In this document: piece after piece, positions 24,063 to 35,591 of the stretch
Layout of the letters: each line of letters opens with the position of its first letter
Position numbering within the stretch: the stretch's first letter is position 1
From: an uncultured Gemmiger sp.
GTDB lineage: Bacteria; Bacillota; Clostridia; Oscillospirales; Ruminococcaceae
Direction of reading: 5' to 3'
NCBI GenBank assembly: GCA_944388125.1
Contig: CALXHO010000015.1
Location: 1-44,645 of the forward strand
DNA: 44,645 nucleotides
Notes under the pieces: model-generated
What the model was told of the DNA's origin: nothing
The model's database searches: none
What the model saw: only the letters and a program-made list of their open reading frames with translations
Translations under genes and position numbers: made by a program

Positions 24063-24842
24063 TCAGTTGGGGTAGATCTTGGCCACCTCATACAGCAGGA
24101 GCTCCAGAAACAGATAGACAATCACCTGATCTTCAAAAAAGTTGTCGGCGTCGTCGTGGCTGATCCAGGGCAGGGTGAAGATCTGGGTCGCATATTTGGC
24201 AGCAGAAATTTTGGGGTTCATGGTGATGAGAAGGATGGGGCAGCCGCTTTCCCGCAGGGAGCGGAACAGAGGGTCACGTCCCACCAGTCCCCGTCCGGCC
24301 ACGCTGATGACAATGCACAGATCCTTGGCGGTGAGAATTTCCGAGTCGTCCGTCATAACGACCCAGTCGTCGGTGGCCTGGTTGAAGATGCCCAGCCGTC
24401 CCAGCCGGTGGGACAGCTGCTTGGCCGACTGAAAGGTCCGGTTGAACCCCCAGATGGTGATGCGCCGTGCCGAGCAGATGGTCTTTGCCGCTTTGCGCAG
24501 TTCCTCCTCGTCCACAAAGTCGGGGAGCTGGCGGATATAGTGGATGTATGCCTCGATGGTGGTCTGCATGGGAGACTGGGTGTTGCCCTGGTCATCGCTG
24601 CGCTCAGCGCCCCGGGAGAGGAGGTACCGGTGCATGGAAAACTTGAATTCAGCAAAGCCCTTGAAGCCCAGCTTCTGGCAAAGGCGGACCAGCGCCGCAT
24701 TGGAGGAATCCGCCGATTTGGCGATGCCCGTGATGCTTTCCCCCAGCACGCAGCGGGGATTGGAAAGGATATACTGTGCCAGTTTCTGCTCGGATTTTGT
24801 AAAACTGTCCATATTTTTCTGCAGCAGGGTGATCGGGTCCAT
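24063..24842 (-). CDS. RpiR/MurR-family sugar-phosphate-responsive regulator 1
   Basis: This 259-residue protein has an N-terminal helix-turn-helix domain (1-77: FTKSEQKLAQYILSN ... SNAALVRLCQKLGFKGFAEFK) and a C-terminal SIS domain (about 105-245) that binds a phosphorylated sugar. The SIS core has the TICSARRITIWGFNRTFQSA and ILLITMNPK segments. It is divergent from the module A PTS permease with both promoters in the 346-base gap, so it most likely controls that operon. It differs clearly from RpiR 2 at 28.8 kb. ATG 24842 follows CGGAGG. Whether it represses or activates is unknown. Confidence 0.9.
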   Translation of the reverse strand: MDPITLLQKNMDSFTKSEQKLAQYILSNPRCVLGESITGIAKSADSSNAALVRLCQKLGFKGFAEFKFSMHRYLLSRGAERSDDQGNTQSPMQTTIEAYIHYIRQLPDFVDEEELRKAAKTICSARRITIWGFNRTFQSAKQLSHRLGRLGIFNQATDDWVVMTDDSEILTAKDLCIVISVAGRGLVGRDPLFRSLRESGCPILLITMNPKISAAKYATQIFTLPWISHDDADNFFEDQVIVYLFLELLLYEVAKIYPN

Positions 24843-24881
24843 CCTGTATCGCCTCCGTATCTTTAATCCCGACGGGATTTT

Positions 24882-24893
24882 GGAAAGATTTCC
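24882..24893. repeat. Palindrome near the rpiR-1 promoter
   Basis: GGAAAGATTTCC is a 12-base palindrome (GGAAA-GA-TTTCC, centre dinucleotide not symmetric). It sits just downstream of the rpiR-1 -10 box. It shares the GAAA...TTTC character of the dyad at 25058 and could be an autoregulatory site. Confidence 0.4.
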
Positions 24894-24907
24894 GTATATC
24901 TGTTTCC

Positions 24908-24936
24908 ATCATACCGCACCGGCGCCGGAAAAGCAA
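24908..24936 (-). promoter_or_regulatory. Promoter of rpiR-1
   Basis: On the minus strand TTGCTT (24931-24936), 17 bases, TATGAT (24908-24913). It lies about 66 bases before the regulator's start. Confidence 0.6.
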
Positions 24937-25057
24937 CCGGAAACGGGCTTCCCTCCCATAATTTAAAAAGAAAACCAAATCGGGGAACAACGTGTCAGCG
25001 TTTCTTTTGGTGAATGTGCGCAAAAAACAGGAAACACATTGAACATATTTCCGAAAA

Positions 25058-25071
25058 TGAAAAACTTTTCA
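25058..25071. promoter_or_regulatory. Candidate RpiR operator upstream of module A
   Basis: TGAAAAACTTTTCA is a dyad of TGAAAA and TTTTCA around AC. A second copy of its left half, TTGAAAAAC, recurs at 25080 and covers the -35 box of the PTS promoter. A regulator bound here would be next to or over RNA polymerase. Confidence 0.5.
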
Positions 25072-33033: not shown

Positions 33034-33107
33034 CAGACAATACGGACAACCAAACAAGATCCGGCAAGGCTGACTTTCCGCTCTTCCCCCACGGGGAGGG
33101 CGGGGAG

Positions 33108-33244
33108 CGGCTTTGCCGCTTTGTCCACCCTTTGATTCCCCGGCGGCAACAGGTCGGCTGCGGGGGGAGGATCCGTCGGATTTGGAGTGGACGCAAAACA
33201 GACGACCATGCTACAATGGCTGCGAGCCCGGACGGAATCCGGGC
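33108..33244 (+). promoter_or_regulatory. Intercistronic hairpins and possible internal promoter before GH1 gene
   Basis: The 255 bases between sulfatase B and the GH1 gene hold AGCGGC-TTT-GCCGCT followed by TTGT near 33108, a possible weak terminator. A candidate promoter TGGACG (33188-33193)-N18-TACAAT (33212-33217) follows, then a hairpin GCCCGGA-CGGAA-TCCGGGC (33226-33244). The GH1-TauE pair might therefore have its own start. Confidence 0.42.
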
Positions 33245-33288
33245 CCCGGGATTGACCGGCAGTCGGAACATCAAGGAGGCAAATCACT

Positions 33289-34728
33289 ATGAGTGTTTTT
33301 CGTGACGATTTCCTGTGGGGCGGCGCCTGTGCCGCCAATCAGTTTGAGGGCGCCTGGAACGTGGACGGCAAGGGCGAGAGCGTGCCCGACCACTGCACCA
33401 ACGGCAGCCACACCCAGCCCAAATGGGTGACCACGTCCATCCGCCCGGACAAGTTCTACCCCAGCCACGATGCCATCGACTTCTATCATCACTATGAGGA
33501 GGACATTGCCCTCTTTGCCGAGATGGGATTCAAGACCTTCCGCACCTCCATCAACTGGACGCGGATTTTCCCCACCGGCATGGAGGATACCCCCAACGAG
33601 GCAGGCCTGGCCTTCTATGACCGGGTATTCGACTGCTGCAAAAAGCACGGCATCGAGCCGCTGGTCACCATCAGCCACTACGAGCTGCCCTACACCCTGG
33701 TGGAAAAGTACAACGGATGGGAGAGCCGGGAGCTGGTCGGCTTCTTCATGAACTACTGCAAGGCCATCTTCGAGCGCTACCAGGACAAGGTGAAATACTG
33801 GCTGACCTTCAACGAGATCAACGCTGGCACCATGCCCTTCGGCGCGCTGGTTTCCACCGGCACCATCCAGGGGTACGAAGGCCCCATGACCAACCTGCCC
33901 GACAAGCCCCAGGAGCGCTATCAGGCACTGCACCATCAGTTTGTGGCCAGCGCCGCCGCGGTCAAGTATGCCCATGAGCACTATCCCCAGTTCAAGATGG
34001 GCAACATGATCTGCTTCATCACCAGCTATCCCTATACCTGCGACCCCGACGACATCCTGGCCTGCCAGAAGCAGATGCAGATGACCAACTGGTTCTGCTC
34101 CGACGTGCAGGTCCGGGGCGAGTATCCCTTCTACGCCAAGCGCTATTTTGAGGAGCACGGCATCCACATCAAGACCGAGCCCGGCGATGCCCAGCTGCTC
34201 AGGGAAGGCAAGGTGGACTTCTACACCTTCAGCTACTATATGTCCAACTGCGTCACCACCCACAAGGACGCCACCCAGACTGAGGGCAACATCTCGTCGG
34301 GCTTCAAGAATCCCTACCTGAAAGCCTCCGACTGGGGCTGGCAGATCGACCCCAAGGGCCTGCGCTATACCCTCAACGAGATTTACAGCCGCTACGGCAT
34401 CCCCATGATGGTGGTGGAGAACGGCCTGGGTGCCAAGGATGTGCTGGAGGAGGACGGCACCGTCCACGACAGCTACCGCATCGACTACCTGCGCGCCCAT
34501 ATCCAGCAGATGGCCGAGGCGGTGAAGGACGGCGTGGACCTGATGGGCTACACCCCCTGGGGCTGCATCGACCTGGTCTCCGCCTCCACCGGCGAGATGG
34601 CCAAGCGCTACGGCTTTATCTATGTCAAGAAATACGACGACGGCACCGGCGATTACAGCCGCCTGCGCAAGGACAGCTTCTTCTGGTACAAAAAAGTCAT
34701 CGAAACCAACGGTGAAACGCTGGACTAA
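33289..34728 (+). CDS. GH1 6-phospho-beta-glucosidase-type enzyme
   Basis: This 479-residue glycoside hydrolase family 1 enzyme starts [20 protein letters not shown]. The acid/base is Glu176 in TFNEIN and the nucleophile Glu377 in [33 protein letters not shown] is the C-terminal loop of the 6-phospho subgroup, where Ser, Lys and Tyr hold the sugar phosphate. It should cut the phosphorylated disaccharide produced by the PTS inside the cell. Only one such enzyme serves two PTS modules in this window. Length and motifs are normal. ATG 33289 follows AAGGAGG. Which phospho-glycoside (glucoside, galactoside or a desulfated derivative) is not resolvable by eye. Confidence 0.95.
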
Positions 34729-34793
34729 TTTTCCAATATGCGCTAATATATAAACCGAGTTAACAAATTTGGGAAATCAGGAGAGTGGAAGGA

Positions 34794-35591
34794 ATGCAGC
34801 AGATTCTGTTTTTCGTCGTGAGTTTACTGGCTTCGGTTGCAGGTGCCATCTGCGGCATCGGCGGCGGTGTCATCATCAAGCCGGTGCTGGACATGGCCCA
34901 TCTGGCCGATGTATCCACCATCAGCTTCCTTTCGGGATGCACGGTGCTGTCCATGAGCTGCTACTCGGTGGGCAAGTCCATGCTGGCCAAGGACAGCTCG
35001 GTGGACCTCAAGAGCGGCACCTATCTGGCGGTGGGCGCAGCCATCGGCGGTGTCTGCGGCCAGCAGCTCTTCGCCCTGGTGCGCAGCCTGTTTGAAAACC
35101 AGAATACCGTCGGTGCGGTGCAGGCCGCCTGCCTGTTCCTCATCACTCTCGGCACCCTGATCTACACCATCCGCAAGGCGAACATCCGCACCCTCAAGGT
35201 GGAGGGCCTTGTCCCCAGCGTGCTCATCGGCCTGGCCCTGGGCATCATGTCCAGCTTCCTGGGCATCGGCGGCGGCCCCATCAACCTGGTGGTCCTGGGC
35301 TACTTCTTCTCCATGCAGACCAAGACCGCGGCCCAGAACAGCCTCTACATCATCCTCTTCAGCCAGATCACCAACCTGCTCACCACCATCGTTGCGGGCA
35401 ACGTTCCCGACTTCGAGATCCTGACCCTGGTGCTGATGGTCTGCGGCGGCATCGGCGGCGGCATGATCGGCCGCTTCTTCAGCCGCCGGATGGACAACCG
35501 GGCGGTGGACAAGCTGTTCATCGGCCTGATGGTGGTCATCATGGCCATCAGCGTCTGGAACACCTGCCGCTACTCCGGCATCGTGATGTGA
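34794..35591 (+). CDS. TauE/SafE-family membrane permease
   Basis: This 265-residue protein has about eight hydrophobic segments and two copies of the family's glycine-rich motif: GAICGIGGGVIIKPVLD (near residue 18) and SSFLGIGGGPINLVVLG (near residue 157). The family exports sulfite, sulfoacetate or related sulfur anions and is widespread. Placement as the last gene of an operon with a sulfatase suggests it removes sulfate or sulfite released inside the cell. That link is inference. ATG 34794 is chosen because AGGAGA lies nine bases before it; GTG 34785 touches that site. The 65-base gap from the GH1 gene has no terminator. Confidence 0.85.
   Translation: MQQILFFVVSLLASVAGAICGIGGGVIIKPVLDMAHLADVSTISFLSGCTVLSMSCYSVGKSMLAKDSSVDLKSGTYLAVGAAIGGVCGQQLFALVRSLFENQNTVGAVQAACLFLITLGTLIYTIRKANIRTLKVEGLVPSVLIGLALGIMSSFLGIGGGPINLVVLGYFFSMQTKTAAQNSLYIILFSQITNLLTTIVAGNVPDFEILTLVLMVCGGIGGGMIGRFFSRRMDNRAVDKLFIGLMVVIMAISVWNTCRYSGIVM

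Follow-up and report, generated by a model that had tools for sequence, protein, structure and literature searches.

Sulfatases encoded beside phosphotransferase importers in an uncultured Gemmiger, and their likely part in cytoplasmic desulfation of sugars

Most of the gut-bacterial sulfatases that have been studied well come from Bacteroides and are secreted or periplasmic. The Streptococcus pneumoniae island SPH1922-1930 encodes a lactose-type importer of the sugar phosphotransferase system (PTS-Lac), a sulfatase, a maturase and a TauE protein (PMC3302838, PMC3283741; 2012). According to the available text of these papers, mutants of the island had attenuated virulence in mice, and tests with 4-methylumbelliferyl sulfate revealed no sulfatase activity. 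A glycosaminoglycan cluster of Streptobacillus moniliformis is described, in the part of the paper available, as importing through an ABC carrier before a predicted cytoplasmic desulfation, and disaccharides sulfated at C6 are argued there to be unsuited to the PTS (PMC5430744). The accessible text on Companilactobacillus farciminis describes degradation of sinigrin by a PTS and a GH1 enzyme (PMC8660893). No demonstration of PTS-coupled desulfation was found in the portions of the literature searched, and the available part of PMC11496695 contains no sulfatase-PTS link. Here, a 44,645-nucleotide contig of an uncultured Gemmiger sp. (the window; CALXHO010000015.1, assembly GCA_944388125.1, 2.57 Mb and 86.75% complete) is analysed, in which two sulfatase genes, SULF1 and SULF2, each lie in a PTS operon.

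The locus (24063..35591) consists of two divergent operons, each headed by an RpiR gene. Operon 1 is ordered RpiR1 (minus strand), an EIIC of the lactose/cellobiose (lac/cel) family, SULF1, EIIA and EIIB, while operon 2 is ordered RpiR2 (minus strand), an EIIBC of the beta-glucoside family, SULF2, GH1 and TauE. An earlier note on this DNA had described this combination, and all ten genes were confirmed in place. Candidatus Gemmiger faecavium (locus L010), the closest relative by SULF2, has the identical ten genes in identical order, with 87% identity in SULF2 and 92% in SULF1. We consider it reasonably likely that the two operons form a module for eating O-sulfated hexosides via PTS import and cytoplasmic desulfation. 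The basis for this is gene content, the absence of leaders, the PTS linkage of both sulfatase types, residues specific to one sulfatase clade and a maturase in the genome; enrichment of exporter candidates, a PTS-linked SULF1 clade, the phosphate motif of GH1 and an ABC-coupled sulfatase pair in the same genome lend further support.

In the proposed mechanism, each PTS would import a sulfated sugar with a free C6 and phosphorylate it; PTS chemistry requires a free C6, an argument also made in the available text of PMC5430744. An anaerobic sulfatase-maturating enzyme (anSME) encoded elsewhere would mature the partner sulfatases in the cytoplasm. These would then strip the sulfate intracellularly, most likely while the sugar bears its phosphate, which R123 and H150 of SULF2 may recognise. 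In operon 2, GH1 would subsequently split the desulfated 6-phospho-beta-glucoside, and TauE would export the freed sulfate.

The association of importer and sulfatase is real and conserved. Of 419 relatives matched in one SULF2 scan of genome contigs, the 80 best were retained, and 76 of these 80 loci, together with the window and one own-genome paralogue, gave a quick tree of 78 rows with SH-aLRT support only. L033 (truncated), L054 (broken in translation table 11), L069 (split open reading frame, ORF) and L082 (overlapping ORF) were left out of the SULF2 counts; L073 is a partial row and that of L010 was added by hand. The tree splits into 48 and 30 rows, and a PTS gene lies on the same strand within 2.5 kb in 42/48 versus 0/30, as detected by phmmer with the window EII proteins (>40 bits). 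This distribution rejects a chance neighbourhood of sulfatase and PTS. Under a looser rule (6 kb, either strand, window excluded), with representative EIIs from the clade as phmmer queries (>50 bits), 42 of 47 clade loci are linked, and in 26 of the 47 the PTS gene lies within 100 bp of SULF2. EIIs of other PTS families would escape these searches on both sides. Missing linkage in homologous loci, which the earlier note had named as the outcome that would count against it, did not occur. The clade holds near-copies (L048/L050/L051, L024/L060, L047/L049), therefore the counts are not independent events.

Six clade rows are unlinked. L012 has an EIIC 2.3 kb upstream, L015 lies at a contig end and L045 on a 5.7 kb contig; for L036, L053 and L089 no PTS was found in the neighbourhood, and L089 is accompanied by an MFS_2 carrier. 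On the non-PTS side, with 29 loci, ABC permeases lie near 15 and MFS_2 carriers near five, the ABC carriers being of sugar or oligopeptide type.

The kind of PTS varies within the clade. The EII adjoining SULF2 is of the beta-glucoside family in 13 rows, sucrose/MurNAc-like in seven and lac/cel in 21, kinds being set by score pattern in these 41 rows, nine of which were profile-scanned along with those of the window (L014 and L029 were left unclassed). PF02378 occurs in all scanned EII kinds, so they represent distinct families and not unrelated folds. On the quick tree, with three kinds and 41 rows, the kind switches at least 10 times. Since coupling to a PTS is kept through these switches, phosphorylation at import, rather than any given permease, appears to be the conserved element. 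Sulfatase-like ORFs remotely similar to SULF1 (79-94 bits) are also present near EIIC-type genes in L029 (4433-5887), L041 (4718-6142) and L055 (13213-14646), and PTS coupling seems to extend to these other subfamilies. A protein of 146-151 residues with hydrophobic stretches by eye adjoins EIIC near SULF2 in 13 loci (L016-L019, L021, L024, L026, L027, L046, L048, L050, L051, L060); one representative was scanned and had no Pfam match.

The PTS clade is further distinguished by its residues. R123 is present in 47/48 PTS-clade rows versus 1/30 outside and S96 in 45/48 versus 0/30, while position 150 is H in 43/48 and N in the other five, versus D in 28/30 outside; K125 marks 29/30 rows of the non-PTS side. 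Under an 80/20 rule, 12 of 19 positions specific to the PTS clade fall within residues 90-200 (hypergeometric p=1.3e-4, the region having been picked after the positions were known), versus four of the 18 that are specific to the non-PTS side (p=0.61). This region contains the DHSH and FDPHEPF motifs; R123, H/N150 and S96 of the clade are located between the active-site motifs. Six plasmid loci, opened later from 88 records with a match, fit carrier type at position 150 in 6/6 cases. An Enterococcus faecium plasmid, which carries a beta-glucoside PTS, shows R123/H150; the other five have D150 and K125, and neither the annotation nor a search of their neighbours revealed a PTS gene. A Rhizobium plasmid sulfatase has R123 together with D150 and K125. 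The sole PTS plasmid shares its genus with L042, which makes this a modest test. We infer that the residue change may mark a shift from neutral-sugar binding to 6-phosphate binding, and the clade is probably adapted to sugar phosphates, neither GH1 nor an exporter being obligatory. It is about an even chance that this clade evolved sugar-phosphate recognition by replacing D150/K125 with R123/H150, that it cleaves sulfate from phospho-sugars produced by any of three distinct PTS families, as a desulfation route coupled to group translocation, and that it has spread among Bacillota and Actinomycetota, probably horizontally, with interchangeable TauE and CHR exporters.

The features of the locus, in window coordinates, are the following (RBS, ribosome-binding site).

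24063..24842, minus strand: RpiR1, RpiR-type regulator of operon 1 (PF01418, 72.5 bits; RBS-like GGAGG upstream)
24880..25096, no strand: putative RpiR1 operators, repeats of TTGGAA/TTGAA...TTTCC/TTCCAA type at 24880, 25039, 25058 and 25081, found by eye
25189..26487, plus strand: PTS EIIC, lactose/cellobiose family (PF02378, 146.9 bits; TIGR00410, 282.8 bits, cut-off 236)
26583..28073, plus strand: SULF1, predicted leaderless formylglycine-type sulfatase (PF00884, 146.2 bits; C53-V-P-S-R)
28086..28415, plus strand: PTS EIIA, lactose/cellobiose type (PF02255, 123.8 bits; VHAQDH)
28430..28729, plus strand: PTS EIIB, lactose/cellobiose type (PF02302, 87.1 bits; C8)
28821..29594, minus strand: RpiR2, RpiR-type regulator of operon 2 (PF01418, 72.0 bits; SIS domain below cut-off, in the longer ORF)
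29675..29688, no strand: putative RpiR2 operator GTCC-N6-GGAC (1), counterpart in L010 at 8154
29711..29724, no strand: putative RpiR2 operator GTCC-N6-GGAC (2), counterpart in L010 at 8190
29871..29884, no strand: putative RpiR2 operator GTCC-N6-GGAC (3), counterpart in L010 at 8339
30063..31532, plus strand: PTS EIIBC, beta-glucoside family, without EIIA domain (PF02378, PF00367; EIIB Cys29)
31561..33033, plus strand: SULF2, predicted leaderless formylglycine-type sulfatase (PF00884, 104.9 bits; C49-M-P-A-R; S96, R123, H150)
33289..34728, plus strand: GH1 6-phospho-beta-glucosidase (PF00232, 434.6 bits; E176, E377, S433-x5-K439-x-Y441)
34785..35591, plus strand: TauE/SafE permease, candidate sulfate exporter (PF01925, 95.2 bits, cut-off 32.6)

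RpiR2 most likely starts at 29594, with RBS-like GGAAAGGAG ahead, the mechanical ORF start being 29876; starts were likewise corrected to 25189 or 25192 for EIIC and to 30063 for EIIBC. The PTS proteins combine EIIC domains with a phosphorylatable EIIA His and EIIB Cys. We take VHAQDH to be the phospho-His motif of EIIA and C8 the phospho-Cys of EIIB. EIIBC scores 518.5 bits against TIGR01995, under the cut-off of 614.7, and covers positions 1-468 of 618; it has no EIIA domain of its own, and PF00358 EIIA matches three stretches elsewhere in the genome. The GH1 protein carries both the catalytic glutamates and S-x5-K-x-Y, the phosphate-binding motif. Its best NCBIfam match is NF007154 (615.4 bits, just under the cut-off of 624) and its closest solved chain is 2xhy, BglA (583.6 bits).

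Both sulfatases combine the PF00884 fold with the C-x-P-[SA]-R motif of type I sulfatases, and C, P and R of this formylglycine motif are invariant in the SULF2 alignment (A1, 66 of 78 rows) and the SULF1 alignment (A4, 19 of 23 rows, without L070, L089, L120 and L122). The earlier note had seen no signal peptide in either, and neither has a hydrophobic N-terminus: within the first 70 residues, Kyte-Doolittle means over 15 residues peak at 0.59 for SULF1 and 0.32 for SULF2 (TauE, 2.5), a call resting on the hydrophobicity profile. A single 19-residue hydrophobic window of SULF2, at 315, slightly exceeds 1.6. The leaderless state is not supported as a PTS-specific trait. ORFs start within 10 residues of the window SULF2 start in 42/46 cases in the PTS clade (longest extension 24) and 22/30 on the other side, the remainder being mechanical ORF starts, and in the annotated sulfatases of L128-L132 the start equals the match start in 5/5. 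Hydrophobicity values for relatives came from rows trimmed to the window start and carry little weight. The source genome has six PF00884 matches and one anSME-type maturase over the cut-off, on another contig (TIGR03942, 377 bits; cut-off 349.45). Among viral relatives of SULF1, only one distant match was found.

Several observations weigh against the proposed module. GH1 lies near SULF2 in only 9/47 PTS-clade loci and is absent within 6 kb in 38/47; exporter candidates (TauE in eight, CHR in four) lie near SULF2 in just 12/47, versus 1/29 other loci; and a maturase is near SULF2 at similar frequency on both sides (15/47 and 7/29). GH1 and TauE are thereby rejected as obligatory parts. Among the residues, position 123 is C in L014 and R in two sulfatases of the other side, those of L071 and the Rhizobium plasmid, and L036, L053 and L089 keep R123 although no PTS was found beside them. 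R156 switches eight times on the tree, and since the residues mark one main split, shared descent alone could account for them. Classical sulfatases have a K/H pair at the sulfate site; by remote alignment the corresponding positions read R-N102-D103 in SULF1 and H95-S96-H97 in SULF2, and the SULF1 profile matches the phosphonate-hydrolase-like chains 4upi/4upl best. Sulfated beta-glycosides, the substrate named by the earlier note, are too specific given how rarely GH1 accompanies SULF2. Of the co-occurrence it proposed to look for, PTS linkage is borne out, often with an exporter candidate and maturase nearby, and the GH1 part is not. The lack of leaders in both enzymes and their place in PTS operons support the note, and the clade residues favour its proposed desulfation of a sugar phosphate; the mechanism it put forward is still the best of those considered.

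The rival explanations are partly compatible with each other and with the module proposed here. In one, the sulfatases follow GH1 or a phosphatase and act on a sulfated fragment that carries no phosphate. The optional nature of GH1 would suit this order, as would the ABC- and MFS-coupled relatives, which presumably process non-phosphorylated sugars; however, the PTS clade has lost D150 and acquired R123, as would suit a phosphorylated substrate, and PTS coupling persists through changes of PTS kind. This order is unlikely. Another places the sulfate on the aglycone, for instance of a glucosinolate or aryl-sulfate glucoside. Both EIIBC and GH1 are of beta-glucoside type, and C. farciminis degrades sinigrin with such a pair, but the available PMC8660893 text never uses the word sulfatase, most clade loci have no GH1, and relatives on the ABC side go with sugar or oligopeptide-type carriers, in the own genome with a ROK protein. 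An aglycone sulfate is thus improbable.

The altered K/H pair, and best profile matches that include 4upi, 4upl, 4upk and 2w8s, would fit SULF1 and SULF2 being formylglycine-dependent phosphodiesterases or phosphonate hydrolases. We regard this as distinctly improbable, given the exporter candidates near PTS-clade SULF2 and the closest single-sequence solved match of SULF1, 7oz8 (136.5 bits), a distant Bacteroides enzyme, BT1918, described in the available text as an S1_46 3-O-sulfo-GlcNAc sulfatase (PMC10154620). Finally, sulfate scavenging for sulfur nutrition, with sugar use secondary, is highly improbable. One PF01507 match in the genome would favour it weakly, as the family matches in all 14 control genomes, while RpiR regulators, PTS, GH1 and an exporter candidate in the operon speak against it, as does the lack of a PF01747 ATP sulfurylase in the 87% complete assembly, in which the CysDN type was not searched for.

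Chromate-transporter-like CHR genes, mostly paired, lie near SULF2 or SULF1 in L011 (11545-12700, between SULF2 and GH1), L015, L025 (5293-6400), L028, L033 and L104 (4934-6099), identified by PF02417 for one gene each in L025 and L104 and by clustering for the rest. Their physiological role may be sulfate export after desulfation. On the E. faecium plasmid pEfm12493 (L128, typed conjugative), positions 4169-11948 successively encode a PRD regulator, a beta-glucoside EIIABC, SULF2, an alpha/beta hydrolase, TauE and a formylglycine-generating enzyme. In L042 (11536-14288) and L052 (11430-14285), an anSME-like radical SAM protein and a formylglycine-generating enzyme both lie near one SULF2, the radical SAM gene of L052 being split across two ORFs.

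Three GTCC-N6-GGAC palindromes, at 29675, 29711 and 29871, lie in the RpiR2 intergenic region, and the matching region of L010 also has three. The window holds five in all, a number reached in 0/100 shuffles; the pattern was picked post hoc. The repeats of the RpiR1 region are partly conserved with L010 and unlike those of the RpiR2 region, which is why the two operons probably respond to different signals. Elsewhere in the window (5364-6374, minus strand) lies a gene for a putative SpoVAD-like protein; the lineage near Gemmiger/Faecalibacterium is usually regarded as non-sporulating.

SULF1 is rare, with matches, own genome included, in 7/148 family genomes (E 1e-60), 2/398 of the phylum (1e-80) and 5/391 of the class (1e-90), and in 1/26 genomes of the class of G445. 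Among 15 loci chosen for SULF1, a SULF2 relative lies no more than 7 kb away in four and at 9.4 kb in the own-genome locus L101; several of those without stop at contig ends. The window, L010, L025, L034 and L037 have both sulfatases, with a separate PTS for each one, and no GH1 is seen at the last two. L104 has both (SULF2 split in two ORFs) with lac-type EIICs, GH1 and CHR genes, and a Niallia taxi plasmid has SULF1 and SULF2 with MFS_2 carriers. As they recur together, each may act on a different sulfate within a single class of substrates. SULF1 rows linked to a lac-type PTS group in one clade, L089 included, while L020, with SULF1 by another EIIBC, falls outside; neither L089 nor L020 entered the SULF1 residue count. 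The second own-genome pair, in L101 (contig C110, 1999-15751), is accompanied by LacI, a ROK protein, a two-component system and an ABC carrier whose permease belongs to PF02653. We take the ROK protein to be a sugar kinase and the carrier to be of CUT2 type; the kinase would take the role that the PTS has in the window. The pair represents a natural ABC-coupled control, and with PTS and ABC sides coexisting in a single genome the idea lends itself to direct testing.

If correct, the proposed module would let Gram-positive gut bacteria reach sulfated sugars by a private route, and its residue signature may predict sulfatases that act on sugar phosphates. The related PTS-sulfatase pairs in other bacteria suggest a little-studied route to such sugars, and the glycosulfatase cluster of Bifidobacterium breve is reportedly a further case. 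The S. moniliformis cluster resembles the window in importing first and differs, in the text available, by its ABC carrier and lack of phosphorylation (PMC5430744). The Proteus vulgaris chondroitin operon, likened here by its description in the accessible text and not by sequence, also joins a putative sulfatase to PTS genes but contains chondroitin lyases and an unsaturated glucuronyl hydrolase (PMC9067506). C. farciminis shares a PTS and 6-phospho-beta-glucosidase acting on a sulfated glucoside, with no sulfatase reported in the part available (PMC8660893).

The earlier note knew of no described system with this gene set, a statement that proves too strong in view of the pneumococcal precedent, which is without GH1 (PMC3302838, PMC3283741). 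Like that island, the window has Lac-type EIIA, EIIB and EIIC, a sulfatase and TauE, although its TauE lies in operon 2 and its lac-type PTS in operon 1, while the pneumococcal counterparts share one island. As described in the available text, the island alone has a ROK regulator, a linked maturase, two EIICs and a ComA-like protein, with GH1 not reported; the window instead has RpiR regulators and a maturase on another contig. One pneumococcal sulfatase primer reads DQMRADAL, resembling the SULF1 start, and the motif D[QE]MR[AC][DS] occurs in 14/23 SULF1, 0/87 SULF2 and 0/26 other sulfatase ORFs. The second, reversed, reads VPARAALL, whereas SULF1 rows read C.PSRC in 23/23 and SULF2 reads C-[MI]-PARR. 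Judged from these primer-encoded residues only, the pneumococcal enzyme is rejected as a SULF1 member, and PTS coupling therefore spans at least one further sulfatase subfamily. The reading proposed for the Gemmiger locus would bear on the uncharacterised pneumococcal island as well.

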